From Paraburkholderia sp. Tr-20389 (GTDB taxonomy: Bacteria; Pseudomonadota; Gammaproteobacteria; Burkholderiales; Burkholderiaceae): 64,000 nucleotides of DNA. The stretch's first letter is position 1, and each line of letters starts with the position of its first letter. Shown piece after piece: positions 4,361 through 62,297 of this stretch. The stretch is taken from NCBI RefSeq assembly GCF_017104565.1, contig NZ_JAAGPD010000020.1:94972-158971 (forward strand), written 5' to 3'. The translations under genes were made by a program, and so were the position numbers. Below the pieces are notes generated by a model. It did no database searches and was not told the origin of the DNA. It saw nothing but the letters and a program-made list of their open reading frames with translations.

Positions 4361-4404
4361 GGGCTGTGCGGATGGTGGCGAAGGCCACGACGCCATCATC
4401 TCTT

Positions 4405-13565: not shown

Positions 13566-13602
13566 TGTACATCAATGTCCTTGTACTTGACACAAGTGTA
13601 CA
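13566..13602. promoter_or_regulatory. Three TGTAC(A) half-sites, probable TetR operator
   Basis: TGTACA at 13566-13571, TGTAC at 13582-13586 and TGTACA at 13597-13602 lie at 15-16 bp steps. The last two flank and overlap the -35 box at 13587. Binding there would block RNA polymerase. The divergent TetR gene is the obvious candidate regulator. Confidence 0.55.
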
Positions 13603-13615
13603 GCGGTCTTAATCT
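13587..13615 (+). promoter_or_regulatory. Sigma70 promoter of the NADH:flavin oxidoreductase
   Basis: A perfect TTGACA (13587-13592), a 17-bp spacer and TAATCT (13610-13615). Transcription would start near 13622, which excludes the in-frame ATG at 13575 and supports translation from 13668. Confidence 0.75.
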
Positions 13616-13667
13616 GCAATCAAACACCATAGTTGAGACGTCCCCACCTGCGACAAGAGGCACTTCC

Positions 13668-16012: not shown

Positions 16013-17323
16013 ATGAGCACCATCAATGGGATCACCGATCTTCATCGCCATAGAGCAGAATCAAAGCTCGCCTACAGAACCGATGACGCGGTTCTCGGCT
16101 GCCGGGCTGGAGTAATCGACGGTTCACTGGTACGCGCATTTGAAGATCTCGATCGCAAATCGATGAGAGCATTCCGACTGGCGCGCCTGCGTGAGCAACT
16201 GCGTTCTCACGACTACGCCGGCATGCTGCTATGCGATCCGCTGAACATTCGCTACGCAACCGACACCAACAATCTCGGGCTGTGGGTCATGCATTCGCCG
16301 AGTCGCTATGTATTCGTCGCGACGGATGGGCCCGTGATCCTGTTCGACTTCACCAGCAGCCGGCACAACAGCGAAGGCATCGAGACAATCGACGAAATCC
16401 GTCCCGCCACGCCGTGGATCTATTTCCTTGCGGGTCCGCGCGTCGAAGAGAAGGCGGAGTTGTGGGCAAAAGAGATCGCGGATATCGTCCGCACCTATGG
16501 TTCCGGCAATCGCCGGCTGGCTGTCGACCGTTGTGATCCCTGGGGTGCCGAACGGCTCAAGCGTAACGGAATCGAATTGTTCGATGCGCAGCCTTTGACG
16601 GAGCAGGCTCGCGTCATCAAGGGGCCGCAAGAGATCGAACAGCATCGGATATCGATGGGCGTGTGCGACCTGGGCATCGCAAGAATGCGCGAGGCTCTCA
16701 CGCCGGGCATCACGGAAAATCAGCTGTGGAGCGTCTTTCACGCGACCAACATCGCACACGGCGGCGAGTACGCGGAGTCCCGGTTGCTCACTTCCGGCGA
16801 GCGAACCAACCCATGGTTTCAGGACACATCGAATCGCATCATCGAGGCCGGCGATATGGTCGCGTTCGACACGGATATGGTCGGGCCAGGCGGATCGCTC
16901 TCGGATATCTCACGTAGCTTCGTCTGTCCGGGTAAGGCGGCAACTGGACATCAGCGAGATCTTTTCGGTTTTGCGGCGGATCAGATCGCGCACAACGTCA
17001 GTTTGCTGAAGGCAGGGCTGTCGTTCCGCGAGTTTGCCGAGCATTGCTGGCCCGTACCCGATCAATACGTGCACAACCGCTACATGATGATGCTGCACGG
17101 TGTTGGACTCGTCGACGAATATCCGAGCGTTGCGTATGCGGTGGATTTCGATGCCTGGGGATACGACGGCGTGTTCCAGGAGAACATGGTCGTCTCGGTT
17201 GAAAGCTATATCGGCGAACACGGCGGGAAAGAGGGCGTCAAGCTGGAAGAGCAGGTGTTGATCACCGCGACGGGTGCCGTCGTGCTTTCGAGCTGTCCGC
17301 TTCTGAACGATCTGAATGCTTGA
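16013..17323 (+). CDS. M24 metallopeptidase-fold protein, DddP-like (copy 1)
   Basis: A 436-residue pita-bread protein. The metal ligands of the fold are all present: FDTDMVG and SDISRSF give three Asp, MMLHGVGLVDEYP gives His, VVSVESYIGE and KLEEQVLIT give two Glu. The first domain carries DPLNIRYATDTNNLGLWVMH. This combination, including an Asp six residues after the ligand His, matches my recollection of the DMSP lyase DddP better than creatinase, prolidase or ectoine hydrolase. DddP cleaves DMSP to acrylate and dimethyl sulfide. Activity here is inferred. It starts an operon-like run with the cyclodeaminase 28 bases later. A close paralogue lies at 55617. Confidence 0.75.
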   Translation: MSTINGITDLHRHRAESKLAYRTDDAVLGCRAGVIDGSLVRAFEDLDRKSMRAFRLARLREQLRSHDYAGMLLCDPLNIRYATDTNNLGLWVMHSPSRYVFVATDGPVILFDFTSSRHNSEGIETIDEIRPATPWIYFLAGPRVEEKAELWAKEIADIVRTYGSGNRRLAVDRCDPWGAERLKRNGIELFDAQPLTEQARVIKGPQEIEQHRISMGVCDLGIARMREALTPGITENQLWSVFHATNIAHGGEYAESRLLTSGERTNPWFQDTSNRIIEAGDMVAFDTDMVGPGGSLSDISRSFVCPGKAATGHQRDLFGFAADQIAHNVSLLKAGLSFREFAEHCWPVPDQYVHNRYMMMLHGVGLVDEYPSVAYAVDFDAWGYDGVFQENMVVSVESYIGEHGGKEGVKLEEQVLITATGAVVLSSCPLLNDLNA

Positions 17324-17351
17324 GTCTGCAAGATAAACAGGTGCCGATTCG

Positions 17352-18892: not shown

Positions 18893-18970
18893 ATTCGGCC
18901 GTGTGTTAATCCGGTGTTCGGGAATATTTCGACCAGCTCAGAGTCTGGAAGTCGTTGACGGAGAGAGTTC

Positions 18971-21084: not shown

Positions 21085-21143
21085 TGCGTCGATATTTCCA
21101 CGCTCCAAAGCGCCACCCTGTGTATGTCACGTGAGGATAGACC

Positions 21144-26341: not shown

Positions 26342-26346
26342 TGTTG

Positions 26347-44159: not shown

Positions 44160-45488
44160 ATGAGCAAGAAGCAGATGAAACTTGGCCTGTCAATGAGATA
44201 CATGGGTTATCACCTCGGTGCGTGGCGTCACCCGGACTTGCGCGCCGACGCTGCATCACGGTTCGACTCGTATTTGAACGTCGCGAAAGTAGCAGAGGAA
44301 AACAAGTTCGATCTACTTTTCCTCGCGGACGGCATCGGGATCCGGTATGACGATGTTCCGAAAGGCTCGCTCTGTCGAGCCAGCCACAACGTGGAACTCG
44401 AACCTCTGACGCTTCTGTCAGCCCTTGCGAGTCGCACGCATCGCATCGGTCTCGTGGCGACTGCCTCGACGACCTACAACGAGCCATACCATATCGCCCG
44501 GAAGTACGGCTCACTCGACCAGATCAGTGCGGGGCGATGCGGATGGAACGTCGTCACATCCTGGTCGGAACAGGAAGCATGGAATTTCAATCGCGCCAAG
44601 CATCTCGATTACGACACGCGATATGAGCGGGCAGCGGAATTCGTCGACGTCGTGACCGGACTATGGGACAGCTGGGATGCCGACGCTTTCGTGCACGACA
44701 AGGAATCGAGCGTTTTCTACGACGAATCAAAACTCCATGTGCTTGGTCACGTCGGCAAGCATTTTTCTGTGCGCGGTCCACTCAGCGTGCGCCGCTCCGT
44801 GCAGGGTCGGCCGATCCTGGTTCAGGCGGGGACCTCTGAAGTCGGGCAGCAGATTGCCGCAAAGCATTGCGACATCGTTTTCGCTGCCCAGCAGAACATT
44901 GAATCGGCGAAGAAGTACTATGCGTCGGTCAAAAGCCGGCTCCCTTCGCATGGGCGAACCGAAGACGATCTTCTGCTGATGGTCGGATTGACGCCGATCG
45001 TCGGTCGGACGCGAGAGGAAGCGCAAGAAAAATACCGGCAGCTCGAAGAGCTCATTGATCCACTCGTCGGCCTGTCCATTTTGAAGCGTTCATTCGGCGA
45101 TCTGTCGCATCTCGATCTCGATGGTCCCGTGCCGAAGCCGGATCTCGAGAACGCAGGTTTGCGCAGCAGTGCCCAGATGTACTACGAAACCGCCCAACGC
45201 GAAGGGCTCTCGATTCGCCAGCTCTACAAGCGGATTGCGATGGCGCAGGAGCATCTGACTGTCGTTGGAACGGCGAGCGACGTTGCGGATGCGATGGAGC
45301 AATGGATGGACGGAAAGGCTGCAGATGGCTTCAACATCGCGCCGACCCATTTGCCTCACGCACTGAACGATTTTGTCGAGCTCGTACTTCCGGAATTGCG
45401 CAGACGGGGAAGATTTCGTGAAGAGTACGAAGGCCAGACCCTGCGTCAGAACCTCGGCCTCAAGGAGCCGCGCAGCATGTATGCCTGA
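44160..45488 (+). CDS. LLM-class FMN-dependent monooxygenase (NtaA/DmoA/SnaA family)
   Basis: A 442-residue flavin monooxygenase using FMNH2 from a partner reductase. It begins KQMKLGLSMRYMGYHLGAWR, with FDLLFLADGIGIRYDD, GRCGWNVVTSWSEQEAWNFN and RPILVQAGTSEVGQQIAAKH, all standard for the NtaA branch (nitrilotriacetate, EDTA, dibenzothiophene sulfone, pristinamycin and dimethyl sulfide monooxygenases). The ATG at 44160 follows AGAGGATACG. The next gene is a flavin reductase, giving a complete two-component system. With a DddP-like protein in the same island, dimethyl sulfide oxidation is an attractive but unproven role. Confidence 0.85.
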   Translation: MSKKQMKLGLSMRYMGYHLGAWRHPDLRADAASRFDSYLNVAKVAEENKFDLLFLADGIGIRYDDVPKGSLCRASHNVELEPLTLLSALASRTHRIGLVATASTTYNEPYHIARKYGSLDQISAGRCGWNVVTSWSEQEAWNFNRAKHLDYDTRYERAAEFVDVVTGLWDSWDADAFVHDKESSVFYDESKLHVLGHVGKHFSVRGPLSVRRSVQGRPILVQAGTSEVGQQIAAKHCDIVFAAQQNIESAKKYYASVKSRLPSHGRTEDDLLLMVGLTPIVGRTREEAQEKYRQLEELIDPLVGLSILKRSFGDLSHLDLDGPVPKPDLENAGLRSSAQMYYETAQREGLSIRQLYKRIAMAQEHLTVVGTASDVADAMEQWMDGKAADGFNIAPTHLPHALNDFVELVLPELRRRGRFREEYEGQTLRQNLGLKEPRSMYA

Positions 45489-45539
45489 TTGCATCCCAAT
45501 CAGTCCATCGATATCTAAACGAAACGAGAGAGCGGCAAA

Positions 45540-46556
45540 ATGATGCGTTCTTCTGATCAGCAGGCTTTCCGCGGTGCGACGCCCGTCGAGCAGGGCAACC
45601 CGGCCGACGACCTCCGGATGTTCCGGCGTTGCCTGAGCCAATACGGCACGGGCGTTGCCATTGTGACCACATCGGATGGCACCAGCCGATTCGCAGTCAC
45701 GGTCAATTCATTTTCGTCGCTGTCGCTTGATCCACCGTTGCTGCTATGGTCAATCGACCGGAAATCGCGGAGCTTCGACGCTTTTTCTTCTTGCGAGCAT
45801 TTCGCCGTCAACATACTGTCGTCGGAGCAGATCGAGCTCTCGCGGCACTTTTCAAGCAAGGTGACTGACAAGTTCGCGAACGTCGACTGGATTCCGGGGC
45901 GGTTCGGGTCCCCGTTGCTTTCCGGCTGCATCGCACGCTTCGAGTGCAGCGCCGAAGCGCGACACGATGGCGGCGATCATCTGATTCTCATCGGCCGCGT
46001 GCAGCAGCTGGAGAGGTACGACGGGATGCCGCTTATATTCAGCCAGGGCCAGTACAGCATACCGCTCGAGCATCCCGATGCGCCCGGTGAGCCGGCGGCG
46101 ATGGCTGCTGAGAAGCCGAACACGCTCGCGAACAACGTGCTGCAACTGATCTTCAATGCTCATCATGCACTCTCCGAAGCGTTCGAAGAGCATCGGCGCG
46201 CCGAAGGCGTCAGCATAGCCGTGGCGAGAGTACTCGCCACCGTGTATGGGCATCCCGGCATCAAAGTGGACGGCATCGCCGCTCAAACCTATCTCGGGCA
46301 GCGCGACGTCGAGGACGCCGTTGTCGAACTTGCGCGGAAGTCATTGCTGGTTCATGCACAAGACGGTGGGATGCGGCTGACCCCTTCGGGCGTTGCACTT
46401 CGCGAGGCGATCGGCGAGCGTTGGATCGCTTTTCAGAACGCGCGACTCGAGAGCATCCCGTCCTCGGATATCTCCGTTCTCATGCGCACCCTGACGCGGT
46501 TGATCGATCCAGCCGCGCAGGAACGCGCTGCGACGGCGGCGGTGAGCGGCGGATAA
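45540..46556 (+). CDS. Flavin reductase fused to a MarR-like winged-helix domain
   Basis: A 338-residue two-domain protein. Residues 20-180 are a flavin reductase-like domain: LRMFRRCLSQYGTGVAIVTT, RFAVTVNSFSSLSLDPPLLL and HFAVNILSSEQIELSRHFSS. Residues 200-330 are helical with NNVLQLIFNAHHALSEAFEE, GHPGIKVDGIAAQTYLGQRD and a wing LVHAQDGGMRLTPSGVALRE, resembling MarR-type DNA-binding or a reductase-regulatory tail known in HpaC-like two-component systems. It should supply reduced FMN to the monooxygenase 51 bases upstream. The fusion could sense an aromatic or onium ligand. Confidence 0.82.
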   Translation: MMRSSDQQAFRGATPVEQGNPADDLRMFRRCLSQYGTGVAIVTTSDGTSRFAVTVNSFSSLSLDPPLLLWSIDRKSRSFDAFSSCEHFAVNILSSEQIELSRHFSSKVTDKFANVDWIPGRFGSPLLSGCIARFECSAEARHDGGDHLILIGRVQQLERYDGMPLIFSQGQYSIPLEHPDAPGEPAAMAAEKPNTLANNVLQLIFNAHHALSEAFEEHRRAEGVSIAVARVLATVYGHPGIKVDGIAAQTYLGQRDVEDAVVELARKSLLVHAQDGGMRLTPSGVALREAIGERWIAFQNARLESIPSSDISVLMRTLTRLIDPAAQERAATAAVSGG

Positions 46557-46667
46557 GGTATCGTCTTCAGATGCGACGAACGTCGCTTTGCGGCGAGCCA
46601 GGCCTGGCATCCGTTTGCAGACGACGATGAGTTGACCCACACACATCACCGGACTAGACACAAGACA

Positions 46668-48269
46668 ATGACCTGGGATTTCATCATCATCGGTGCTGGT
46701 TCAGCTGGATGTGTACTGGCCAACCGCTTGAGCGCCGATCCCCAGCACAAGGTGTTGCTTCTGGAAGCGGGAGGCGACGACAATCGCTTTGCCATCAAGA
46801 TACCGGCGCTGGCGATGAAGGCGATGAACAATCCCGAAACGGACTGGATGTTTCCAACCGAGCCCGATCCCACACGAAACAACCGGACCGAGATCGTTCC
46901 GAGGGGCAGGGTGCTTGGCGGGTCGAGCTCCATCAACGCTACATGGTACGTCCGAGGTAATCGCGGCGACTATGATCACTGGGCGGAACTTGGAAACAAG
47001 GGATGGTCATACGACGAACTGCTTCCTTATTTCCACAAGGTCGAGTGCAATCGCGATGGAGTGAGCGACGCTTACGGTAAGTCGGGTTCCATCGTCATCG
47101 GCGAAATTCGCGGCGTGCCAAAGTTGACGCGAGTCTTCCTCGACGCGATGGAGGAGATCGGCTATCGGAAGAACGCATCGTTCAATGCCGAGCCCACCGA
47201 AGGCGTCGCGATTCTGCATTCGACGCAACATCGAGGCATCAGGTGGAGCGCGGCAAGAGGCTATCTCCATCCGGTAAAAGACAGAGCGAATCTAAAGATC
47301 GTCACGGGAGCACTCGTACGCCGGATCATCATCGAGAACGGCACGGCAGTCGGCGTTGAATTCGACATGGATGGATGCACACATGTCGAGCATTGCACCG
47401 GAGAAGTCATCCTCAGCGCGAGTGCGATCAATTCGCCAAAGATCCTCATGCATTCCGGCATCGGACCGCATGAGCAATTGGCCCTCGCGGGGATCAAGAC
47501 CATCGTCGGCAATGAGGCAGTCGGACGCAATCTGCAGGAACATCCTGCGTGCCAGGTCAAGGCGTTTGTCAACGTTCGCACGGCGAATCAGGAGTTCAAC
47601 GCGATGGGGATGATCAAGTACGGCTCCCGCTTCATCGTGTCGCGATCAGGTCAGGCCACGTTCTCGTATAGCGGCATAGGTCTTGTCCGTACCAGGCCCG
47701 AGCTTTTCTATCCGGATATCCAGTATCACTTCGGCGCGTTCTCTTCGAGCTACACCGACGAGGGAATACGCATGGAGAAGGAAGCCGCGGTGAACCTGCA
47801 GCCGAACGTGAACCGCTCGAGGAGCCGGGGTTATATCCGTCTCAAGTCCGCTGATCCGTTCGCACCGCCGGGCATCCAGTTCAACATGCTGAGCGACCCA
47901 TACGATTGCGAGACGTTGATTGCGGGCGCCCGGATCGCGAGGTCGGCGCTTCGTTCAAAGGCGTTCGCCCCATACGTGACGGGTGAATGCAAGCCAGGCG
48001 ACGATGTTCAGACAGATGACGAGTGGCTTGGCTACCTTCGGGAGAACGCTGGCGGAAGTTTCCATCCTTGCGGGACCTGCAAGATGGGTACTGACGCGGA
48101 CGCAGTTGTCACGCCGGATCTCAAGGTGATCGGGATAGACCGTTTGCGCGTAGTGGATTCGTCGATCATTCCACAGATTCCAAGTGGCAACCTGAATGCA
48201 ATCAGCCTGGTGATCGGGGAAAAGGGCGCCGATATGATTCTGGCAGAGCGAGCCCGCGCCAGGAACTGA
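46668..48269 (+). CDS. GMC oxidoreductase, choline dehydrogenase-like
   Basis: A 533-residue FAD enzyme of the glucose-methanol-choline family. FIIIGAGSAGCVLANRLSAD is the FAD site; RGRVLGGSSSINATWYVRGN is GMC signature 1; EVILSASAINSPKILMHSGI with GP is signature 2; FHPCGTCKMG holds the catalytic His. It resembles BetA and other alcohol dehydrogenases that oxidise choline-like alcohols to aldehydes. ATG 46668 is chosen over TTG 46632 because the FAD fold starts there. The aldehyde dehydrogenase at 51757 would complete oxidation to the acid. Confidence 0.85.
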   Translation: MTWDFIIIGAGSAGCVLANRLSADPQHKVLLLEAGGDDNRFAIKIPALAMKAMNNPETDWMFPTEPDPTRNNRTEIVPRGRVLGGSSSINATWYVRGNRGDYDHWAELGNKGWSYDELLPYFHKVECNRDGVSDAYGKSGSIVIGEIRGVPKLTRVFLDAMEEIGYRKNASFNAEPTEGVAILHSTQHRGIRWSAARGYLHPVKDRANLKIVTGALVRRIIIENGTAVGVEFDMDGCTHVEHCTGEVILSASAINSPKILMHSGIGPHEQLALAGIKTIVGNEAVGRNLQEHPACQVKAFVNVRTANQEFNAMGMIKYGSRFIVSRSGQATFSYSGIGLVRTRPELFYPDIQYHFGAFSSSYTDEGIRMEKEAAVNLQPNVNRSRSRGYIRLKSADPFAPPGIQFNMLSDPYDCETLIAGARIARSALRSKAFAPYVTGECKPGDDVQTDDEWLGYLRENAGGSFHPCGTCKMGTDADAVVTPDLKVIGIDRLRVVDSSIIPQIPSGNLNAISLVIGEKGADMILAERARARN

Positions 48270-48449
48270 TCGTCGGGCCGCCCGACGACACCGTAAAAAA
48301 GATGCGACGCGTTGAATGGGAGCAGATCGCCGATCGTCGATCGACCTGCTCAACGCAAACCAGCGCCTTTGAAGTATGAAATTCGCAGCACGTTGCAAGC
48401 GGGAAAAGAAAGTAACCACACAACGGAACTCAACACAGGAAACCATTGT

Positions 48450-49418
48450 ATGAAATCGTTACTCGCACTGTCCGCAGCTTTCTTGCTCGGTTCGATTTCC
48501 GCTCCAGCGATGTCCGCGGAATGTGGCTCCGTGACCATTACGGAGATGAACTGGTCGTCGGCGGCCGTGGTGACCGCCGTTTCGGGTTTTCTCATGGAAC
48601 AGGGGTACGGATGCAAGGTGCAGAAGGTGCCGACGTCGACAGTTCCCGCATTGACCTCACTTGCCGAAACCGGTAAGCCCGACATCCTGACCGAAGTCTG
48701 GCCGGCTGTGGCCGACGTCTACTACACGCTCGAGAAGCAGGGCAAAATCGTGCCAGTCGCCAAGGTGCTCTCCGATGGCGGCCAGGACGGTTGGTGGGTG
48801 CCGAAGTACCTCGTGGACAAGCATCCTGAACTCAAAACGCTGAGTGGCATCCTCGCGCATCCGGATCTCGTCGGGGGGCAGTTCAACAACGGGCCGCCGG
48901 GATGGGGGTCGACCGTTTCCAACAATAACCTTGTGAAGGCCTTCGATCTGCAGGGGCACGGCATCAAGGTAGTCAGCTTCGGGTCCGGTGAAACGCTTGC
49001 AGCTTCGCTTGCCGCAGCTTACAAGGATCAGAAACCCTGGTTCGGTTACTACTGGGCACCGACCTCCCTGCTGGGCAAGTATCCGATGGTGAGTGTGGAT
49101 ATGGGCCCCATCGCTCCCGAGATCGCGAAGTGCAATGCCCGTCTGGATTGCGCTTCACCGGGCAAGACGGGATGGCCCCCGGCGCCCGTCCTCACGACGA
49201 TGTCCAAGCCGTTTCATGACGCGCATCCCGACATCGTTGCCCTGATGAGCCATGTTTCGTTTACCAATGCAACCATGAACCAGCTGCTTTCGTGGCAAGA
49301 GGCGAACAAGGCTACAGCTGACGAGACTGCCGCATATTTTTTGACGCATTATAAAGACCTCTGGAAAGGCTGGCTGTCACCCGACGCGGCTGCGAAGGTC
49401 GGTGCAGTGATCAAATAG
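48450..49418 (+). CDS. Glycine betaine-type ABC substrate-binding protein (ProX/OpuAC family)
   Basis: A 322-residue exported protein, signal peptide ending near APAMSAEC. Mature blocks are VTITEMNWSSAAVVTAVSGF, PDILTEVWPAVADVYYTLEK, QDGWWVPKYL and KPWFGYYWAPTSLLGKYPMV, with many Trp and Tyr that could cage a quaternary ammonium or sulfonium group. AGGA precedes the ATG. It is the first of three transporter genes for an onium compound such as glycine betaine, carnitine, choline or DMSP. Confidence 0.9.
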   Translation: MKSLLALSAAFLLGSISAPAMSAECGSVTITEMNWSSAAVVTAVSGFLMEQGYGCKVQKVPTSTVPALTSLAETGKPDILTEVWPAVADVYYTLEKQGKIVPVAKVLSDGGQDGWWVPKYLVDKHPELKTLSGILAHPDLVGGQFNNGPPGWGSTVSNNNLVKAFDLQGHGIKVVSFGSGETLAASLAAAYKDQKPWFGYYWAPTSLLGKYPMVSVDMGPIAPEIAKCNARLDCASPGKTGWPPAPVLTTMSKPFHDAHPDIVALMSHVSFTNATMNQLLSWQEANKATADETAAYFLTHYKDLWKGWLSPDAAAKVGAVIK

Positions 49419-49536
49419 CGTGACCGTGGCCGTTCACCGGCCGCGCTGCCTGCCTTGTTCTTTGATTGCTTGCGTTGCACCTCATCGGGTTGGGGCGAAA
49501 TGTGAGTGCTGAAAACACGGACGCCGGATCAAGTCT

Positions 49537-50580
49537 ATGAACATCTACAACGCAATTTTCGGATCGCCGGCTGTCCGGCAGTGGTGCGACGCTGACGCAC
49601 AGACGGGACCGGTGTCGCTTGCACAACTGATCGCGAAATCGGCGTCTGCGACGTCAAAAGACGGGAGCGGATGGAATGTGCCGTTTCCTTCCCTGGATGC
49701 GCTCAACGCAGACTGTCCGGCAATCCCACGGACCCGCGATTTCACTTCGGGAATCGAGCACGGCTTCCTGCACATCCGCAACGCGTTGAAGCTGGTTCTG
49801 GATCCGTTGACGCAACCGTTGTCATGGCTGCTGGATTTCTCGTTGCATGTGGTGGATGTGGTTCCGTGGTGGCTCATCACGGTAGCCCTTTTGCTCGTGA
49901 CTTACGGACTGTCGCGTTCGAAAAGGATTACGGCGCTCGCCGCCGGGATCCTGTTTTGCCTCGGCCTGGTCGATCATCTGCATTACGCGTTGCAGACCAC
50001 AGCGATCGTTTTCACCTGCACCATCATCTGTATCGTTGTGGGCATGCCGATCGGCATTGCGATGTCGAAGAGCGACAAGCTGAAGAGCAGTCTTTTGCCC
50101 GTGCTGGACATGCTCCAGACGCTGCCTTCGTTCGTCTATCTGATTCCGCTGATTTTCCTGTTCAGTGTCACGGAACCCAAGCTTTACGGGATCGCCATCA
50201 TTCTCTATGCAATCGTTCCCATGATAAGGCTGACCGATCTGGGCGTCCGTCAGGTCGACGGGAGCGTTGGGGAAGCGGCATCTGCGTTTGGCATGAGCTG
50301 GTTCCAGAAGCTGCTCGGCGTAGAGCTTCCGCTGGCGCTTCCAAGCATCATGGCCGGTGTCAACCAGACAATCATGATGTCATTGTCGATGGTGGTGATT
50401 GCCTCGCTCGTATCGGCTCCTGGACTTGGCGTGCTGGTGCTTCGAGGAATCAACAATCTCGAGCTTGGCGTAGGTTTGGTAGCAGGTCTTTCGATCGTCT
50501 TTCTGGCGATACTTTTTGATCGCGTTACCAAGGCGTCGATGTCGCGCCTTAGCGCCCACACTCAGGGAGAACGCACATGA
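49537..50580 (+). CDS. Glycine betaine-type ABC permease (ProW/OpuAB family)
   Basis: A 347-residue permease. An N-terminal soluble part of about 85 residues (with TRDFTSGIEHGFLHIRNALK) leads to six or seven helices; the EAA-like coupling loop reads VGEAASAFGMSWFQKLLGVE followed by LPLALPSIMAG. This long N-terminal region is typical of ProW-type permeases. The final ATGA overlap joins it to the ATPase gene. Together with the binding protein it imports an onium substrate. Confidence 0.9.
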   Translation: MNIYNAIFGSPAVRQWCDADAQTGPVSLAQLIAKSASATSKDGSGWNVPFPSLDALNADCPAIPRTRDFTSGIEHGFLHIRNALKLVLDPLTQPLSWLLDFSLHVVDVVPWWLITVALLLVTYGLSRSKRITALAAGILFCLGLVDHLHYALQTTAIVFTCTIICIVVGMPIGIAMSKSDKLKSSLLPVLDMLQTLPSFVYLIPLIFLFSVTEPKLYGIAIILYAIVPMIRLTDLGVRQVDGSVGEAASAFGMSWFQKLLGVELPLALPSIMAGVNQTIMMSLSMVVIASLVSAPGLGVLVLRGINNLELGVGLVAGLSIVFLAILFDRVTKASMSRLSAHTQGERT

Positions 50581-51683
50581 GCGGCGAGGTGAAAATATCG
50601 GTCCAGAACTGTTTCAAGGTTTTCGGACCGAACGCCAAAGCGATGATGCCCCTCGTCCGCGATGGCGTCGGCAAATCGGAACTGCTCGAAAAGCATGGTC
50701 ACGTCATTGGTCTGCACGACATCAACGTCGACATGCGCGCGGGAGAGATCACCGTCATCATGGGGCTTTCAGGATCGGGAAAGTCGACGCTCATTCGTCA
50801 TCTGAACGGCCTGATTGTGCCCACCGCCGGGCAGATCCTCATGGACGGTCGGGATATCACGGAGCTGTCAGGCCGTGCATTGCTGGAATTCAGGCGATCT
50901 TGCGTGTCGATGGTATTTCAGAACTTTGCCTTGATGCCGCATCTCACCGTGCTCGAGAACGTGGGGCTTGCGAAGAAGGTATGCGGCAAGTCCAGAGAAG
51001 CCACGACGGCGGATGCCCGGCGCTGGATAGACCGCCTCGGCCTGAGTGGCTTCGAGAGCCGGTATCCGCATCAGCTGTCGGGCGGGATGCAGCAGCGGGT
51101 CGGAATTGCACGGGCGTTGACCTCGGATGCGGGCGTGCTGTTGATGGACGAAGCGTTTTCCGCTCTCGATCCTTTGACGCGTGCCGACATGCAGGATCTG
51201 CTCATCGAGCTTCAACGCGAGCTCTTCAAGACGATCGTATTCATTACACACGATCTCGAGGAAGCGCTAAAGATCGCCGATCATATCGTCATTCTCAAGG
51301 ACGGCAAGATCGTTCAGCAGGGGGCACCGCAAAGCATCATCCTGAATCCGCGCGACGAATATATCGAGCGCTTCGTCAACGACATCAACCGGGCGCGCGT
51401 ACTCAGAGTCAGGTCAGTGATGCAGCCGGGCCTGTCCACCGTGGCACAGACGACAGACGTCATCGACGGCAATGAGACGCTCGAGTCCGCCATGGTGAAA
51501 GCGCAAGGCGACCCGGACCGGACGTTCACCGTCACCGAGGCGGGCTCGCCGATCGGTACGCTGGCCATGCGGGACCTGATCCGCGCGATCGTGCCGCGCA
51601 GTGTGCGCGGCGGGCCGCAGCGAGAGGACGAAGCTGCAGCCGGCACGCCAGCGGTCACCTTCGTGCACACGACGGCCGCCTGA
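50577..51683 (+). CDS. Glycine betaine-type ABC ATPase (ProV/OpuAA family)
   Basis: A 368-residue ATPase. It starts ISVQNCFKVFGPNAKAMMPL, then Walker A GLSGSGKST, signature LSGGMQQRVGIARALT, Walker B LLMDEAFSALDPLTRADMQD and H-loop FITHDLEEAL, all ProV-like. Residues 280-350 are a shortened CBS-like region (TFTVTEAGSPIGTLAMRDLI) that in ProV senses osmotic or ionic state. It overlaps the permease stop by 4 bases. Cytoplasmic face of the inner membrane. Confidence 0.93.
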   Translation: MSGEVKISVQNCFKVFGPNAKAMMPLVRDGVGKSELLEKHGHVIGLHDINVDMRAGEITVIMGLSGSGKSTLIRHLNGLIVPTAGQILMDGRDITELSGRALLEFRRSCVSMVFQNFALMPHLTVLENVGLAKKVCGKSREATTADARRWIDRLGLSGFESRYPHQLSGGMQQRVGIARALTSDAGVLLMDEAFSALDPLTRADMQDLLIELQRELFKTIVFITHDLEEALKIADHIVILKDGKIVQQGAPQSIILNPRDEYIERFVNDINRARVLRVRSVMQPGLSTVAQTTDVIDGNETLESAMVKAQGDPDRTFTVTEAGSPIGTLAMRDLIRAIVPRSVRGGPQREDEAAAGTPAVTFVHTTAA

Positions 51684-51756
51684 ATCCGGTAGGACCACGC
51701 CATGAGGTACGAGTCGTAACGCCGTACCCAAACCCGTATCGAACCGAGGAAACGCA

Positions 51757-53175
51757 GTGCGCTATCTTGACCATTTTTACATCGACGGGAAGTTTGTTCC
51801 TGCCACGGATCGTGCGCGCCGCGCGGTCATCAATCCTGCGACCCTCGAACCGGTTGGCGAGATCGCGATGGGAACCCAGGCGGATACCGACGCCGCTGTC
51901 AACGCGGCGAGACGCGCTTTCGAATCGTTTTCGAAATCGGATGTCCGTTTCAGGCTGGAGATGCTTCGCCGTATCGCGGCGATGTTCGAAGAGCGACGGG
52001 AGGAATTCGCGAGGCTGATGACATTGGAGATGGGCACTCCGATTTCTTTTTCCCGATCGGCCCAGGTGGGAGGATCCGAGGCTCACATCCAGAATGGAAT
52101 CGAGATTCTTCAACGATTCGAGTTCGAGAAAAAGCAAGGCAAGACAACACTGGTTATGGAGCCTGCGGGCGTGTGCGGACTGATCACACCCTGGAACTTT
52201 CCAGTCTTGCAGATCATCACCAAGCTCATCCCCGCGTTGGCTGTAGGTTGCACCGTTGTTCTCAAGCCGAGTGAATATTCCCCGCTGAGCGCAATACGTC
52301 TCGCTGAGTTGCTGCACGATGCGGACGTACCCGCGGGGGTGTTCAATCTGGTCAACGGTGATGGCGCGACGGTGGGTGCCGCAATGTCGGCGCATCCGGG
52401 GTTGGACATGATCTCGTTCACGGGTTCTACCCGAGCAGGGGTGCTTGTCGCCAAGGCGGCGGCCGACACGGTGAAGCGCGTGCACCAGGAACTCGGTGGA
52501 AATTCGGCGAACATCATCTTGCCCGACGCCGATATAAGGACAGCAGTCAAGGCGGGTGTGCATGCTGCCTATCGCAATGCCGGGCAGTCATGTACGGCGC
52601 CCGGAAGAATGCTGGTTCATCGTACCCAGTACGAACAGGCAATCGAAGTGGCCCGGCACGCCGCTGGGGATTTTCGTTGCGGTGACACATTCGATGAAGC
52701 CACATTGCTCGGCCCGGTCGTGAACGAAGCACAGTACACCCGCGGCAGGGCATTGATCGCCTCCGCATTGGAAGAGGGCGCGACGTTGGTGACGGGCGGT
52801 GCGGAGCTTCCCGCCGGCATCGAGACAGGGTATTTCATCCAGCCGACGGTGTTCGCCAATGTGACTCGAAACATGCGGATCGCGAGGGAAGAAACCTTCG
52901 CTCCCATCGTGTCGTTGATTGCCTACGACGATGTCGACGAGGCTGTCGATATCGCGAACGATACCCCATACGGGCTTGCAGGGTACGTGCAGGGAAGCGA
53001 TGAAGGCGCCTCAAGAGTCGCGGCCCGCTTGCGCGTGGGGCAGGTGCAGATCAATCAGCCGCAATGGGATCCGTCCGCACCGTTTGGTGGCTTCAAGCAG
53101 TCAGGCAACGGACGGGAATGCGGTGAAGCGGGTTTTGAAGCCTATCTGGAGATCAAGGCAATTCTCAAGCCCTGA
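51757..53175 (+). CDS. Aldehyde dehydrogenase
   Basis: A 472-residue NAD(P)-dependent enzyme starting at GTG 51757, with CGAGGAAACG before it. PWNFPVLQIITKLIPALAVG, the Glu in HQELGGNSANI and the catalytic Cys in NAGQSCTAPGRMLVHR are present, as is the C-terminal APFGGFKQSGNGRECGEAGF. It lies between the onium transporter and the regulator genes, so it should oxidise the aldehyde made by the GMC enzyme. It is not a typical BetB by end sequence; the substrate is open. In the same island as a DddP-like lyase it could also handle malonate semialdehyde or a related acid aldehyde. Confidence 0.88.
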   Translation: MRYLDHFYIDGKFVPATDRARRAVINPATLEPVGEIAMGTQADTDAAVNAARRAFESFSKSDVRFRLEMLRRIAAMFEERREEFARLMTLEMGTPISFSRSAQVGGSEAHIQNGIEILQRFEFEKKQGKTTLVMEPAGVCGLITPWNFPVLQIITKLIPALAVGCTVVLKPSEYSPLSAIRLAELLHDADVPAGVFNLVNGDGATVGAAMSAHPGLDMISFTGSTRAGVLVAKAAADTVKRVHQELGGNSANIILPDADIRTAVKAGVHAAYRNAGQSCTAPGRMLVHRTQYEQAIEVARHAAGDFRCGDTFDEATLLGPVVNEAQYTRGRALIASALEEGATLVTGGAELPAGIETGYFIQPTVFANVTRNMRIAREETFAPIVSLIAYDDVDEAVDIANDTPYGLAGYVQGSDEGASRVAARLRVGQVQINQPQWDPSAPFGGFKQSGNGRECGEAGFEAYLEIKAILKP

Positions 53176-53185
53176 TTCACGAAAA

Positions 53186-54262
53186 GTGTTCTCCGTCGAC
53201 AACAGGAACCTGCAAGCGTCTGCTCTAAACGACCCGCATTACGGGGCAAGACTGCGGTCGGCAAGACATTTCGCTTTTTTGCTTGTCCCGAACTTCAGCA
53301 TGATCGCGTTCGTGAATGCGCTCGAAGTACTGCGTATGGCGAATCAGGTCAGCGGCAGTGACATTTTCGAATGGTCGGTGGCGGGTATAGACGGATTCCC
53401 CGTCCGGGCGAGTAACGGCTTGACGGTCCCCGCGTTTTCCGGCGACCGGATGGACCGGGCGGATGTTGTTTTCGTCTGTGGGGGGAACGATATCGAGCGA
53501 ACGACAACGGTGGCGCATCTCAATCTGGTGAAGCAGTACGCCCGAAGCGGCAAGTTCATCGGCGGGATATGCACCGGCGCCTATGTCCTCGCAAAGGCCG
53601 GGCTGCTAAGAGGCTACACGTGCGCAATCCACTGGGAATATCTCTATGCTCAAGCAGAGAGATTTTTCGAAGTCGGATTTGAGGAGCGCGTATTCAGGAT
53701 CGACCGGGACAGGCTGACCTGCGCAGGCGGGATCGCGCCGGTGGACATGATGCTGGATATCGTTAGGCGATCGATGGGATCGGAAATCGTCGCAATGATA
53801 TCGAGTCAATTTTCCTTGAATGGCATCAGAAGCACCGATGCAAGGCAGAAGACGACACGTTACGGATCGTCGAGAAGCCTGGTGTCCGCCATCACCGAGC
53901 TGATGGAACGCAACATCGAAACGCCGCTGTCGCTCGACGCCTTATCCGGGCGTAGCGGTCTGTCCGAGCGGCAGCTCTCGCGTACATTCAGGAATGCGGT
54001 GGGTCAGCCCGTGATGAAATACTACCGCTCGCTCCGGCTGCATCACGCAAGGCAGCTCTTGTTGCAAAGCAGCTTCTCTCTCACGGAGGTATGCGTCGCG
54101 TGCGGATTTCAATCGCACGCTCACTTCGCGACCGCGTACAGAAAGGAATTCGGCCTGACACCCGGTCAGGAAAGGGAGCGTGGGGACCGCAGGCCCGCGG
54201 GCGGGGAATCAGGCTACAATTCAGACGGCGGATCGGCGGTTGCATCGCTGGTTGCACCATAG
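53186..54262 (+). CDS. AraC-family regulator with DJ-1/PfpI-like domain, GbdR/CdhR-like
   Basis: A 358-residue regulator. The N-terminal DJ-1/PfpI-like part has FAFLLVPNFSMIAFVNALEV, LRMANQVSG and FIGGICTGAYVLAKAGLLRG; the C-terminal AraC double helix-turn-helix runs from about 240 with IETPLSLDALSGRSGLSERQ, LSRTFRNAVG and VCVACGFQSHAHFATAYRKE. This is the layout of GbdR and CdhR, which sense glycine betaine-like or carnitine-derived ligands. There is no good ATG; GTG 53186 is the most plausible start, 10 bases after the dehydrogenase stop. It likely controls this island. Confidence 0.82.
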   Translation: MFSVDNRNLQASALNDPHYGARLRSARHFAFLLVPNFSMIAFVNALEVLRMANQVSGSDIFEWSVAGIDGFPVRASNGLTVPAFSGDRMDRADVVFVCGGNDIERTTTVAHLNLVKQYARSGKFIGGICTGAYVLAKAGLLRGYTCAIHWEYLYAQAERFFEVGFEERVFRIDRDRLTCAGGIAPVDMMLDIVRRSMGSEIVAMISSQFSLNGIRSTDARQKTTRYGSSRSLVSAITELMERNIETPLSLDALSGRSGLSERQLSRTFRNAVGQPVMKYYRSLRLHHARQLLLQSSFSLTEVCVACGFQSHAHFATAYRKEFGLTPGQERERGDRRPAGGESGYNSDGGSAVASLVAP

Positions 54263-54290
54263 CGTGAGGGCCAACAGGGAGATTGTGCAG

Positions 54291-55205
54291 ATGGGTTCAT
54301 TGAAGGCAACACTTCCTCCGCCAAACATGCTGATCACGTTCGAAGCCGCCGGGCGCCATCTGAGTTTTTCGCGTGCAGCCGTCGAGCTGGACGTTTCGCG
54401 GGTCGCGGTAAGCCAGCAGGTTCAGGCTTTAGAGACCTTTCTGGGTGTTCAGCTCTTCCATCGCGTCGACCGTGCTGTCAGGCTGACAGATAACGGCGCC
54501 CGCTATCATGCCGCGATTTCATCCGCTTTGCGGCAGGTTCTTCACGCAACCACGGAAGTCAGTTCACGCCCCATCGATAACATCGTGACGATCAGTGCCA
54601 CGGCGGGCTTCACGACCTACTGGCTTTTGCCGAACCTTGGTGCGTTTCGCGCGCTGCATCCGGACATCGAACTTCGGTTTATCGTCGCTGACCAGTACGC
54701 GGACGGCGACAGCAGTGTCGACATCGCCGTTACCTACGGGCTGACGCCGCCGGAAGGGGATTCGGTTCTTCTCACGTCACAGACGATCGCGCCAACGTGT
54801 TCGGCCACCTATCTCGCGAACAGGGAGGCACCGGAAAAGCCGGCTGATCTGCTCAAGCATCAGTTGATTCATCTCGAGGGGCCTTTTGACCGGTTGACGC
54901 GATGGTCGACCTGGTTTACCAACCAGGGCGTCAACATGGATGCCGCCAAGTCCACGATCACTGTGAACACCTATACGAATCTGGTCCAGGCCGTGTTCGA
55001 TGGACAGGGATTCGCGCTGATCGGGCCTCCGCTCATGGAGCGGTTCCTCACCAACAAAACGCTTGTACAGCCCATCAGAATGGAGCCGGTTCGCTGCCAC
55101 GGGTTTCATCTGACCGTGCTCCGACATTCACCAGTTGCGGCGGCCACTGGCGCCGTGGCCGACTGGATCAAGGGTTCGTTTCTTTGCAATCGCAGCGCCG
55201 CATAG
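54291..55205 (+). CDS. LysR-family regulator, GcvA-like
   Basis: A 304-residue LysR regulator. The helix-turn-helix reads FEAAGRHLSFSRAAVELDVS and RVAVSQQVQALETFLG. The effector domain has YWLLPNLGAFRALHPDIELR. ATG 54291 has GGGAG before it; the frame is open from 54180 but overlaps the AraC gene. It lies between the AraC gene and the DddP-like gene and may control the latter from the direct-repeat sites at 55263-55281. Confidence 0.87.
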   Translation: MGSLKATLPPPNMLITFEAAGRHLSFSRAAVELDVSRVAVSQQVQALETFLGVQLFHRVDRAVRLTDNGARYHAAISSALRQVLHATTEVSSRPIDNIVTISATAGFTTYWLLPNLGAFRALHPDIELRFIVADQYADGDSSVDIAVTYGLTPPEGDSVLLTSQTIAPTCSATYLANREAPEKPADLLKHQLIHLEGPFDRLTRWSTWFTNQGVNMDAAKSTITVNTYTNLVQAVFDGQGFALIGPPLMERFLTNKTLVQPIRMEPVRCHGFHLTVLRHSPVAAATGAVADWIKGSFLCNRSAA

Positions 55206-55616
55206 GCCGCGCGCCTGTTATCGATCGATAGCGACCGGCAACAATCCCAATCATCCGATTGCGTTAACCTTGAGTTAACCTCGCCGGTTTTTTTTCCTGC
55301 GTTTACGACGCAATAGTCAACGCGCACCATCTGTCAGTCTCGGGCGTTGCGAGGCATGGCGCTGCGTGCTGATCTGCTCGCACATGTCCGCAAAGCTGGT
55401 CGGGCTTTCCGATGGATGGATGAGAGCGCGATACGGCAGAGACGAAAGAGCGTCGAGAACGTCGGCCGGAAGCGAGCCCCACGCAACCGCATATGCCTTT
55501 GCGCAGTCCGTTGATGGATGCGAAAGGCGCACTCGCCATGCCGGCTTTCTTCCAGACAAACGGTAACTCGTGGTGGCGTCTGTTTGCGATCGTCTACCAC
55601 CGATACAGGTAACCCT
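55206..55616. promoter_or_regulatory. Regulatory gap before the second M24 gene
   Basis: GTTAACCT occurs at 55263-55270 and again at 55274-55281, one helical turn apart, followed by a T-run and TTTTCCTGCGTTTACG at 55292-55307. That 16-mer also precedes the monooxygenase gene. A minus-strand frame at 55317-55559 has protein-like residues but no start signal and is not called. The M24 start at 55617 has AGGT before it. Confidence 0.5.
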
Positions 55617-56930
55617 ATGAACAGCCGCGATAACAACGAAGCCAATGCGTCTAACTCACACCATGCAGCCGACCGGCTTTTCCGTAGCGACGGCCTGGTT
55701 GCAATACATCAGGTCAGCAAGATCGACAGTTCGATCATTGCCGCGTTCGAAGGTATCGATCGCCCGGCTTTGCGCGCATATCGCGTGGAACGACTGCGCG
55801 CTCAACTGCGTCTGCACGACTATGCCGGGATGTTGCTGGCGGATCCGATCAACATTCGGTATGCGACGGATACGAACAGCCTGGGCGTATGGGTGATGCA
55901 CGCTCCGAGTCGATACGTTTTCGTCGCGACCGATGGTCCAGTCATCTTGTTCGATTTCACGACCAGCCGACACAACAGCGAAGACATCGAGTCGATCGAT
56001 GAAATCCGTCCTACGATTGCATGGAATTATTTTCTTGCAGGGCCGCGCGTCCAGGAAAAAGCGGGAGATTGGGCCCGGTGCATCGCCGACGTCGTGCGTC
56101 AGCATGGATGCGGAAACAGGCGTTTGGCCGTCGACAAGTGCGATCCCTGGGGGGCCGACCTGCTGAGGGCCGAAGGGATATCGCTTCATGACGCACAACC
56201 GCTCACGGAAATGGCGCGCCTGATAAAAGGCCCGCAAGAGATCGAGCAGCACAGAGTGTCGATGGCCGTATGTGATCTTGGCGTTTCTAGAATGCGGGAG
56301 GCACTGCGGCCCGGCATCACGGAGAATCAGCTTTGGAGCGTGCTCCAGGATACGAACACGGCCCACGGAGGGGAGTGGAGTGAGGCGCGCCTTCTGAGTT
56401 CCGGACCTCGGACGAATCCGTGGTTCAGGGATGTCTCGAACCGCGTCATCAACGCTGGCGATATCGTCGGGTTCGATACCGACATGGTGGGTCCTGGCGG
56501 ATACTTGTCCGATATTTCCAGAAGCTTCATCTGCCCGGGGAAAAGTCCATCGTCGGAGCAAAGGACGCTGTTTGGTCATGCGAGGGATCAGATCGCTCAT
56601 AACAGCGCACTGCTCAAACCCGGCGTGACGTTTCGGGAGTTTGCCGGGAAGTGTTGGGACGTGCCGGAAAAGTACGTGCACAACCGCTACATGATGATGG
56701 TGCACGGATGTGGTCTCGTCGACGAATATCCGAGCGTCGCCTATGCCGTAGATTTCGAGGAATGGGGTTACGACGGTACGTTCGAAGAAAATATGGTGGT
56801 GTCGGTTGAGAGCTTCATCGGAGAGAAGGGTGGCCAGGAGGGCGTCAAACTGGAAGAGCAGGTCCTGATCACGGCGAACGGACCCGTACCACTGTCGAGT
56901 TGCCCGTTGCTCGGCGATCTTTTGATCTGA
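55617..56930 (+). CDS. M24 metallopeptidase-fold protein, DddP-like (copy 2)
   Basis: A 437-residue homologue of the protein at 16013, with clear identity throughout (for example DPINIRYATDTNSLGVWVMH against DPLNIRYATDTNNLGLWVMH). The six metal ligands lie in GFDTDMVG, SDISRSF, VHGCGLVDEYP, VVSVESFIGE and KLEEQVLIT, and the Asp six residues after the His is kept. It resembles DMSP lyase DddP. The N-terminal 25 residues differ most between copies. The betaine-type transporter in the same island would suit DMSP uptake. Alternative roles include another onium or amide hydrolase; activity is unproven. Confidence 0.75.
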   Translation: MNSRDNNEANASNSHHAADRLFRSDGLVAIHQVSKIDSSIIAAFEGIDRPALRAYRVERLRAQLRLHDYAGMLLADPINIRYATDTNSLGVWVMHAPSRYVFVATDGPVILFDFTTSRHNSEDIESIDEIRPTIAWNYFLAGPRVQEKAGDWARCIADVVRQHGCGNRRLAVDKCDPWGADLLRAEGISLHDAQPLTEMARLIKGPQEIEQHRVSMAVCDLGVSRMREALRPGITENQLWSVLQDTNTAHGGEWSEARLLSSGPRTNPWFRDVSNRVINAGDIVGFDTDMVGPGGYLSDISRSFICPGKSPSSEQRTLFGHARDQIAHNSALLKPGVTFREFAGKCWDVPEKYVHNRYMMMVHGCGLVDEYPSVAYAVDFEEWGYDGTFEENMVVSVESFIGEKGGQEGVKLEEQVLITANGPVPLSSCPLLGDLLI

Positions 56931-57326: not shown

Positions 57327-58796
57327 ATGATTACCGTGCAGGAGTTGCTCGATACCCGATCCCTGAAACTAACGGCCCTTGCTGGATTGTCCGGACTGAC
57401 GCGGACAATCACCTGGGCCCATGCTGTTGACCTTCCCGATCCCTGGAGATGGATTGCCGCCGGCAATCTGGTCATGACAACGGGTGTAGGCGTGCCGCGC
57501 AATGCGCCGGACCAGATTGCCTGGCTGGAGAAGCTGGCGCGTAGCAATGCAAGTGCATTAGTTGTCGCACGCCAGGCCGATGCGCCGGAACTGTCACGCG
57601 AGATGCTAGATGCAGCAGACCGTCTTATGTTTCCGGTACTGGAAGGGAGCTTCGAGCTTGAATTCGTGCAGTTGTCGAAGCATGTGATCGAGAGTGTGCT
57701 GCAGGCCCAGCGCGATCGCTTCAGAGCCAGCGAACAACTGTTCGAGACTTATGCGGCCGCACTGCGCGAAGTGCCGGACATGGCGGGACGACTGACTGTT
57801 CTATCAGAACGGTTGCGACTCGGGCTGGCAATCGAAGATGCCCGCAGCGGTTCGATCATCGTATCCTCAAGTCCCTTGCCATCTTCTGTCGAGACCAGCC
57901 CGGTCTTTATAGAGCGCGTCGCTATCGGTGGCCGGGCAAAAGCGGACCTGGTCATTCATCGTCGAGACTCGGAAGCGATGCAGGATCCGCTGCTGGTGCG
58001 CTCTCTTCTCGGCCTGCTCGAGATCGAGCTGGAGCGGATGATGATCGACCGCGACAACCTGCGAGAAGAAGGCGCGGCACTCTTACGCGGGCTGTTGAAG
58101 GGCGAGGCCGAGTTTTCCTTTCGTCCCATGCTGGAGCGCCGCGGGTTGACGGGCACACTGGTCGTGCTCGCAGTCTCTCCCGGAAAGCAAGGGCCATGGA
58201 GCGTAGCAGAGATCCACCATGCGCCACCTTTGCATGCCCGCACCCCCTTGCTGCTCGAAGATGAGGTGCTGCTCGTGCTGGCTCAGGATCACGTCGACAC
58301 GCTGGAATGCCTGCGGTTCGGCTTGGGCGAAGGCACCGTGGCCGGCATCAGCGGGCCCGTCACGGAGGCAGCCGGCTTTCGAGAGAGCGTGCGCCAGGCG
58401 CGTCTGGCGCTGGGACAGGCACACGAAGTCGGAAAGGATCTCGTGCGCTACGGAGAGATCGAAACCGGCTACATCACGATGCCGAGGTCACTTGCCGAGG
58501 CGAGCGCTTTGGTTGGCCGCTATCTCGGTCCTGTGATCGAGTACGACCGCGTCCACGGTACGGCACTGCTCTCGACGCTTATGACGTTTCTCGAGAACGA
58601 CGGCAACTGGAAATCCACCGCCTTCGACCTGGCGATCCACCGCCAGACCCTTGTCTACCGCCTGAAACATATCGAGCAGCTGACGGGCGTCAAACCGACC
58701 ACGACCGACGGGATCACGCGGTTGTGGCTCGCCTTACAGGCTGGAAAGGCTGCCAATCTGTTGTCCGATGCCCCTTTGAAATCATCGGATGGTTAG
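57327..58796 (+). CDS. PucR-family regulator
   Basis: A 489-residue regulator. The N-terminal PucR domain starts ITVQELLDTRSLKLTALAGL with LTRTITWAHAVDLPDPWRWI. A GGDEF-like middle region (about 270-370) contains LLLEDEVLLVLAQDHVDTLE. The C-terminal helix-turn-helix region has LLSTLMTFLENDGNWKSTAF and LAIHRQTLVYRLKHIEQLTG, the PucR/CdaR output motif. Such proteins control purine, GABA or polyamine use. It is divergent to nothing and lies just before the permease of the third cluster, its likely target. Confidence 0.88.
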   Translation: MITVQELLDTRSLKLTALAGLSGLTRTITWAHAVDLPDPWRWIAAGNLVMTTGVGVPRNAPDQIAWLEKLARSNASALVVARQADAPELSREMLDAADRLMFPVLEGSFELEFVQLSKHVIESVLQAQRDRFRASEQLFETYAAALREVPDMAGRLTVLSERLRLGLAIEDARSGSIIVSSSPLPSSVETSPVFIERVAIGGRAKADLVIHRRDSEAMQDPLLVRSLLGLLEIELERMMIDRDNLREEGAALLRGLLKGEAEFSFRPMLERRGLTGTLVVLAVSPGKQGPWSVAEIHHAPPLHARTPLLLEDEVLLVLAQDHVDTLECLRFGLGEGTVAGISGPVTEAAGFRESVRQARLALGQAHEVGKDLVRYGEIETGYITMPRSLAEASALVGRYLGPVIEYDRVHGTALLSTLMTFLENDGNWKSTAFDLAIHRQTLVYRLKHIEQLTGVKPTTTDGITRLWLALQAGKAANLLSDAPLKSSDG

Positions 58797-58912
58797 TCAT
58801 ACATTTGTATAAGAGCCGTCTCTCAAGACGACATTTTGCGCATAGCCTGCCCCGCGCGTTTTGCTTTTAATGGAGGTAACAAAAGACAAATTTCGTTTCC
58901 AGGAGACAACCG

Positions 58913-60304: not shown

Positions 60305-60413
60305 CGTCGGAATCGACGAATCAATATACGCCTCGCATCTGCACGGTAATCGTCGCAACGGGAAACGCCCCCCGAACTGCATTAACAGGAACCTTGATTG
60401 GTAGGAGAGACGG

Positions 60414-61796: not shown

Positions 61797-61810
61797 AAAA
61801 GGAGTGATAG

Positions 61811-62161
61811 ATGACGAAGTTCACCATCGTCAAAGCCGCCGATATTGCTTCGGCCCGACTCGCCTCGGCCGGTCAGCGCGCCGGGGCCGATAGCGGCGAT
61901 CCCCAGATCGCCGTCAAGACTGTTGCGCCCGAGGCGGTTGGCAATCTGGGGATATGGGAATGTCAGCCGGGAGGCTGGCCAGTGATAAACCGTCCCGATA
62001 CCGAATTCACGTACATCATTTCTGGCCGTGCGAGGCTCACCGATGATTCGACGGGTGAAGTGACCGAGATAGTCGGTGGAGATCTCGTGATCTTGCCGCC
62101 CGGCTGGACAGGGCGCTGGGATGTACTGGAACCCGTTCGCAAGATCTACGCGATTTATTGA
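61811..62161 (+). CDS. Cupin protein, DUF861/EutQ-like
   Basis: A 116-residue cupin with NLGIWECQPGGWPVINRPDT, EFTYIISGRARLTDDSTGEV and GGDLVILPPGWTGRWDVLEP. AAAGGAG precedes the ATG, 14 bases after the oxidoreductase stop, so they are co-expressed. It is related to the cupin at 7139 at the family level. The catalytic metal His set is not evident. An accessory or ligand-binding role in amine oxidation is inferred. Confidence 0.82.
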   Translation: MTKFTIVKAADIASARLASAGQRAGADSGDPQIAVKTVAPEAVGNLGIWECQPGGWPVINRPDTEFTYIISGRARLTDDSTGEVTEIVGGDLVILPPGWTGRWDVLEPVRKIYAIY

Positions 62162-62297
62162 ACCTGATCCGCGAGCATCGAAGAGAGCGACGAGAGCGAC
62201 GAGTTGACGATGCCGACGGGCAGTTGACGTTTTATAGAGTTGAGAAGCACAGACGGCAGGGTATTCATAAAACCGACCTATTGTTTGGAGACTAAGC

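Follow-up and report, generated by a model that had tools for sequence, protein, structure and literature searches.

Two of the described systems closest to the gene cluster examined here act on dimethylsulfoniopropionate (DMSP), one importing it and the other cleaving it. PMC10030565 describes DmpXWV as the DMSP ATP-binding cassette (ABC) transporter of Roseovarius, Ruegeria and SAR11, and structure 7yle as RnDmpX with DMSP bound. For the M24-family lyase DddP, the published active site comprises the metal ligands D295, D297, D307, H371, E406 and E421, together with Y366 and D377, the proposed base (PMC4108388). The cluster that we compare with them lies in a 64,000-nucleotide stretch of Paraburkholderia sp. 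Tr-20389 (contig NZ_JAAGPD010000020.1, positions 94,972 to 158,971; hereafter the window), part of a 9.0 Mb assembly. It had been read as a possible complete onium-compound (DMSP or betaine) catabolic island in which a DddP-like lyase would release dimethyl sulfide (DMS) for oxidation by a neighboring monooxygenase. All the genes named in that original prediction are present on the plus strand at 44160-56930, and we found no published cluster of the same gene make-up in the open literature searched. The ten genes, and a second M24 gene elsewhere in the window, are:

44160..45488, plus strand: flavin mononucleotide (FMN)-dependent group C monooxygenase of the NtaA/DmoA/YtnJ family (TIGR03860 539 bits, cut-off 280; ATG at 44160)
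45540..46556, plus strand: two-domain flavin reductase, 338 aa, of the NtaB / 4-hydroxyphenylacetate (HPA)-hydroxylase C1 type (Flavin_Reduct PF01613)
46668..48269, plus strand: GMC flavoprotein alcohol dehydrogenase/oxidase (betA 479 bits, under the cut-off of 732)
48450..49418, plus strand: DmpX-like periplasmic onium-binding protein, OpuAC (7yle 393 bits; pocket comparison below)
49537..50580, plus strand: ABC permease of the ProW/ChoW type (choXWV permease model 216 bits, under the cut-off of 363)
50577..51683, plus strand: ABC ATPase of the ProV/ChoV type (choXWV model 320 bits, under the cut-off of 484)
51757..53175, plus strand: aldehyde dehydrogenase (ALDH; Aldedh 513 bits; BADH 396 bits, under the cut-off of 669)
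53201..54262, plus strand, start codon approximate: GlxA/GbdR-type AraC regulator (GbdR model 311 bits, under the cut-off of 480)
54291..55205, plus strand: LysR regulator of the GcvA/choline-sulfate type (GcvA 219 bits, cut-off 288; choline-sulfate regulator 202 bits, cut-off 325)
55617..56930, plus strand: M24 pita-bread protein, DddP-like, a putative accessory part (DddP model 340 bits, cut-off 600)
16013..17323, plus strand: second M24 DddP-like paralogue, 73% identical to the copy at 55617, in its own OYE/OCD/amino-acid-ABC cluster

Among the models listed for the ten proteins (at most the best 25 for each), TIGR03860 is the only one whose curated cut-off is passed, so that "DddP-like", "GbdR-like" and "family containing DmoA" are correct as wide family labels and no further. 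The onium-type catabolic island survives as a sound conserved cluster that includes a dedicated transporter and regulators. The DddP, betA, BADH, GbdR and choXWV models all fall below their cut-offs, and the specific coupling of DMSP cleavage to DMS oxidation is not supported. We suggest that the cluster may take up a DMSP-like onium carboxylate and dealkylate it oxidatively, a reading to which we give about an even chance.

A rare, conserved gene unit

When species genomes were scanned for the M24 protein, 19 loci were returned, two of which, in Burkholderia sp. Nafp2/4-1b (L021) and B. latens LMG 24064 (L033), hold the row oxygenase-reductase-GMC-binding protein-permease-ATPase-ALDH-GbdR-LysR-M24 in collinear order, with identities of 57-86% to the window genes. 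The stretches examined for these two strains covered only the final 11-12% of the oxygenase; G251, taken as the same locus as L021, has a complete oxygenase that is 87% identical. The LMG 24064 M24 gene matches as two overlapping pieces (L033, 10001-11303), a frameshift-like pattern. Plasmid p5 of Rhizobium sp. NZLR1 carries nine of the ten genes, rearranged and 36-74% identical, M24 being the missing one. There, LysR (53%) diverges from binding protein (70%), permease (71%), ATPase (61%) and ALDH (65%), and that row faces GlxA (36%), GMC (70%), reductase (55%) and oxygenase (74%). In genome G769, binding protein, permease and ATPase (65-71%) diverge from LysR, oxygenase, reductase and GMC (53-75%).

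Five loci therefore share the oxygenase-reductase-GMC-transporter core (the window, Nafp2/4-1b, LMG 24064, NZLR1 p5 and G769). M24 adjoins it in three and is absent from the 28.9 kb p5 stretch, the NZLR1 chromosome lying outside the search, and from the 19.9 kb G769 stretch. No record of the plasmid collection holds an M24 at least 60% identical, and the three DddP-like M24 genes elsewhere in G769 are at most 47% identical. This indicates a core of transporter, LysR, oxygenase, reductase and GMC from which M24 is separable, and an oxygenase that need not rely on DMS from M24. In Rhizobium and G769 the reductase gene directly adjoins or overlaps the GMC gene, which probably means that the two are co-expressed.

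The cluster is rare. Beyond the host genome, a close binding protein occurs in one of 299 family genomes (86%; next best 43%), and the best match in 369 class genomes is 54% identical. A GMC search at E 1e-160 recovered, besides the host, only G769 and G1067 among 398 genomes; the G1067 stretch contains no further core gene, bar weak GMC and ATPase matches, and plasmid GMC matches in Sphingomonas and Agrobacterium lie in other gene contexts. Rare as they are, the ten genes form a real conserved unit, beyond chance.

Relatives of the transporter and the oxygenase

The best solved-structure match of the binding protein is 7yle, at 393 bits with the next at 52. Its identity to RnDmpX is 53%, and the range over the five loci is 51-54%. 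Eight residues line the RnDmpX pocket as published (W35, T64, W84, E113, W152, A153, Y200 and W202; PMC10030565). Six of them, W35, T64, W84, W152, Y200 and W202, are kept, including the aromatic cage, while E113D and A153G occur in all five loci; three DmpX proteins of the class sample (L096-L098) retain E113 and A153. The ligand is thus probably a DMSP-sized onium carboxylate, perhaps of slightly different shape. By comparison, the DmpX-like proteins of Burkholderiaceae Rieske/FADox/DHDPS clusters have A84 and V/I200 pockets in eight of eight rows (L085, L087-L093).

For the oxygenase, the predicted membership of the DmoA family holds at the level of TIGR03860, in which DmoA is not the closest relative. 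The PDB matches by phmmer include YtnJ (345 bits), 3sdo (320 bits) and DmoA (6ak1, 241 bits), the last being the seventh sequence of the list, after YtnJ, 7e36, 3sdo and DszA. Two Aminobacter aminovorans oxygenases, on pAA02 and pAA03, score higher still (409-416 bits by phmmer, 44-46% identity), and on these figures the identification of the window protein as DmoA was rejected. For each Aminobacter oxygenase, the gene of a long flavin reductase is found within ~3 kb. These reductases share 39% identity with that of the window, which itself matches the HPA hydroxylase reductase 5zc2 at 163 bits; reductase lengths are 322-338 aa. An oxygenase paired with such a reductase, as in the NtaA/NtaB type, is thus found here. 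From gene lengths, divergent arrangement and a GntR gene, we take the pAA02 pair to be ntaA/ntaB of the nitrilotriacetate (NTA) monooxygenase operon. The pAA03 locus also holds flavin adenine dinucleotide (FAD) oxidoreductase, ALDH and BhcR/BhcA genes, a content fitting a predicted glyoxylate-releasing route. Unlike the window, the Aminobacter stretches have no annotated DmpX-like, GMC or M24 gene. On balance the oxygenase evidence appears to favor C-N dealkylation, with sulfur substrates possible. Ring opening of the trigonelline/homarine type by a flavin oxygenase was also considered, and searches yielded no usable comparison.

The M24 protein and DddP

Over 382 positions the window M24 shares 36.6% identity with RlDddP. 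On the DddP model NF043017 it scores 340 bits against the curated cut-off of 600, the second window copy 347 and a third copy in the genome 379. Across 398 phylum-sample genomes, 17 exceed 600 bits (635-903) and the next match reaches 483; none of 150 Burkholderiaceae genomes passes. Two trees, one of 112 and one of 41 sequences, place the window M24 with the M24s of the OYE/OCD/amino-acid-ABC cluster, whereas the DddP clade is partnered by M24s beside MttB and DMGDH (three with 112 sequences, two with 41) plus one beside a Rieske gene. The window clade and DddP occupy separate branches (support 100/100 and 100/99), and forcing them together is rejected (approximately unbiased (AU) test, p 0.0012), for a group picked after the 112-sequence tree had been seen. 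The three cluster M24s form their own branch (SH-aLRT 100), and all three differ at 53 of the 144 positions that are near-invariant in 18 DddP rows. The score and the AU test rule out the window M24 as a true DddP; ectoine hydrolase was likewise excluded (28 bits, cut-off 575).

The window protein nevertheless keeps all six DddP metal ligands, Tyr366 and Asp377. The same eight residues are present in 33/33 M24s of Rieske contexts and are therefore not diagnostic of a DMSP lyase; the DddP residues also occur in seven of seven MttB-context M24s, but Asp377 in only five of these. Over the 112 M24 rows, Asp377 is present in 83 and replaced by Gly in 24, Val in two and Gln in one, with two gapped, while the other seven residues are found in 108-112 rows, the metal ligands being nearly invariant. 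The residues would fit a chemistry shared by the window, Rieske-linked and DddP clades, without marking DMSP lyases. M24s of L115-L122, L135 and other deep branches are without Asp377, several of them adjoining onium transporters; they would have to catalyze a reaction other than the one suggested for DddP.

Of the 92 non-DddP M24 rows, 53 have a gene for a Rieske protein, Rieske reductase, MttB, DMGDH or OYE no more than 8 kb away, as does one of the 18 DddP rows (Fisher p 4e-5, a guide only, as rows are related and reference proteins come partly from the same loci). Two window rows were excluded from this tally and one duplicate removed; 14 of the 53 module-linked rows are OYE loci, nearly all of one cluster type. 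Among these relatives, the clusters combining Rieske, hydroxyproline epimerase and M24 genes (for example in Rhizobium anhuiense) share with the window a DddP-like M24, an onium ABC transporter, a GlxA regulator and an ALDH; they differ in having a Rieske protein and reductase where the window has the FMN oxygenase and reductase. We take them to be of the (hydroxy)proline betaine type.

Two further loci concern this family. On a plasmid of Pseudomonas sp. MPC6 (L130), an M24 gene (52%) adjoins BCCT, Rieske and FAD oxidoreductase genes, and farther along stands a set of a 2517-bp coenzyme A (CoA) transferase, BCCT, Fe-ADH and MMSDH; by the size of the transferase, this set presumably resembles a dddD cluster. 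In Paracoccus yeei (L137), a gene annotated dddP falls inside the DddP clade and sits among hydantoinase/oxoprolinase, mandelate racemase and PucR genes.

Candidate pathways and neighboring clusters

From the gene content, conservation, relatedness, and pocket and catalytic residues that we observe, a substrate class, a dealkylation and an order of steps can be proposed. A small onium carboxylate would enter through the DmpX-type ABC transporter, the step that we infer most strongly. With moderate confidence, the NtaA/NtaB-type two-component FMN monooxygenase would then dealkylate the onium center, C-N or C-S cleavage giving an aldehyde and a smaller amine or sulfide, and, with similar confidence, the alcohol and aldehyde fragments would be oxidized by the GMC and aldehyde dehydrogenases. 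The GlxA/GbdR-type and LysR proteins are the predicted regulators. Tentatively, the M24 protein, sister of the M24 in the window's OYE cluster (13.6-22 kb), might have been added in Burkholderia-type loci to act as an accessory lyase or hydrolase of onium carboxylates. In favor of this proposal we count the conservation of the unit in Burkholderia, Rhizobium and G769 despite differing gene order, the closeness of the binding protein to DMSP-bound RnDmpX with six pocket residues kept, the match of both oxygenase and long reductase to two Aminobacter pairs, the adjoining reductase and GMC genes, the separability of M24, and the frequent position of M24 relatives beside other onium-demethylase modules.

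Several observations weigh against it. The D113/G153 pocket is shared by two DmpX-like proteins whose genes adjoin ones of the mandelate-racemase type (Mesorhizobium and Sulfitobacter, 58-59% identical to the window binding protein). ALDH and GbdR genes are absent from the G769 stretch, and the best ALDH elsewhere in that genome is 52% identical. The pairing of oxygenase and long reductase is not tight: a Neorhizobium oxygenase, 60% identical and outside the cluster, has a short reductase (170 aa) and a spermidine/putrescine-type transporter as neighbors, and the long reductase of a Bradyrhizobium (40%) lies near an oxygenase only 33% identical. The label of dealkylase would derive from 44-46% identity to a pair with a presumed NTA role, in a family, TIGR03860, whose members act on very different substrates, and the closeness of YtnJ, which we take to be an enzyme of sulfur compounds, leaves sulfur chemistry possible. 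The module tally draws on related rows, and the oxygenase itself counts 0 in it, its sole full locus having been removed as the duplicate. Finally, 411 bp separate LysR from M24 in the window, so that M24 may be a separate unit.

This gap, together with the NZLR1 and G769 stretches that have no M24, would fit two unrelated neighbors, a transporter/oxygenase/GMC/ALDH unit and a separate M24, adjacent by chance or through shared regulation; M24 stands at the same place in three genomes, on its own fully supported branch, and we judge this distinctly unlikely. A route of the choline kind seems to us rather unlikely. In it, GMC and ALDH would convert an imported onium alcohol to a betaine, from which the FMN monooxygenase or M24 would strip the onium group. 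Among the models listed, choline dehydrogenases are the best for GMC, BADH is among the best for ALDH, choXWV is the best for permease and ATPase and GbdR the best for the AraC regulator, but all lie below their curated cut-offs; the DmpX carboxylate contact T64 is kept, and the choline-binding model matches the binding protein weakly (43 bits, cut-off 379). The choline/glycine-betaine pathway as annotated was rejected on the betA, BADH and GbdR scores.

The coupling first envisaged, in which M24 would cleave imported DMSP to DMS and acrylate, the FMN monooxygenase would oxidize DMS, and GMC and ALDH would process the C3 product, can draw on the DmpX-like binding protein with its aromatic cage and Tyr200, on the place of DmoA within the oxygenase family, and on the DddP residues of M24, among them an Asp377 that is lacking in 27 of the 110 rows with a residue there. 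Set against this are the position of M24 outside the DddP clade and far under the cut-off, the recurrence of its eight residues in every Rieske-context M24, the two cores of five without an adjoining M24, an oxygenase nearer the NtaA and YtnJ types than DmoA, and a binding pocket in which all five loci carry two changes among eight positions. The ten family assignments include no acrylate- or 3-hydroxypropionate-CoA enzyme, the genome not having been specifically searched. We consider this model very improbable. DMSP or a close analogue stays among the candidate substrates because of the DmpX-like binding protein and the proposed catalytic base of M24, DMSP itself being a possible but unlikely, minority option.

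Other units of the window also have the look of catabolic clusters. At 12840-22972, genes for TetR, an OYE-type flavoenzyme, M24, an OCD-type imine reductase, MarR and a polar amino-acid ABC transporter form a set kept in Caballeronia, Paraburkholderia and Burkholderia, which, speculatively, could perform beta-elimination from an onium amino acid and then imine reduction. Downstream, 57327-63422 encodes a PucR regulator, an APC permease, an FAD amine oxidoreductase (TIGR03329 241 bits, cut-off 633) and a branched-chain binding protein, and may be another amine-type catabolic unit. The ALDH, MFS, FAD amine oxidase and DHDPS-family genes at 728-6897 resemble what we take to be a hydroxyproline catabolism set; their counterparts in Rieske-type clusters of relatives are 73-89% identical for the ALDH, oxidase and DHDPS but only 36% for the MFS. 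Elsewhere, 38585-41188 encodes a protein of 867 aa that contains a very long Pro-Thr repeat, and 23930-28872 holds two large genes on the minus strand, of which one looks VgrG-like by eye, suggesting a type VI secretion spike island.

For the wider family, these comparisons mean that the published DddP catalytic residues cannot decide the identity of a DMSP lyase. Where bacteria from soil or plants carry DddP-like genes, these may be read as such lyases, and our data argue against that reading for the clade of the window M24. In a broader view that we think unlikely, the two-component flavin monooxygenase would be an onium dealkylase and DddP-like M24 proteins a general partner of onium-demethylation modules, marine DddP being one DMSP-cleaving offshoot. 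If the flavin-oxygenase reading is true, it would add an extra route for the breakdown of onium compounds, one that joins the Rieske oxygenases, cobalamin (MttB) methyltransferases and OYE-type demethylases.

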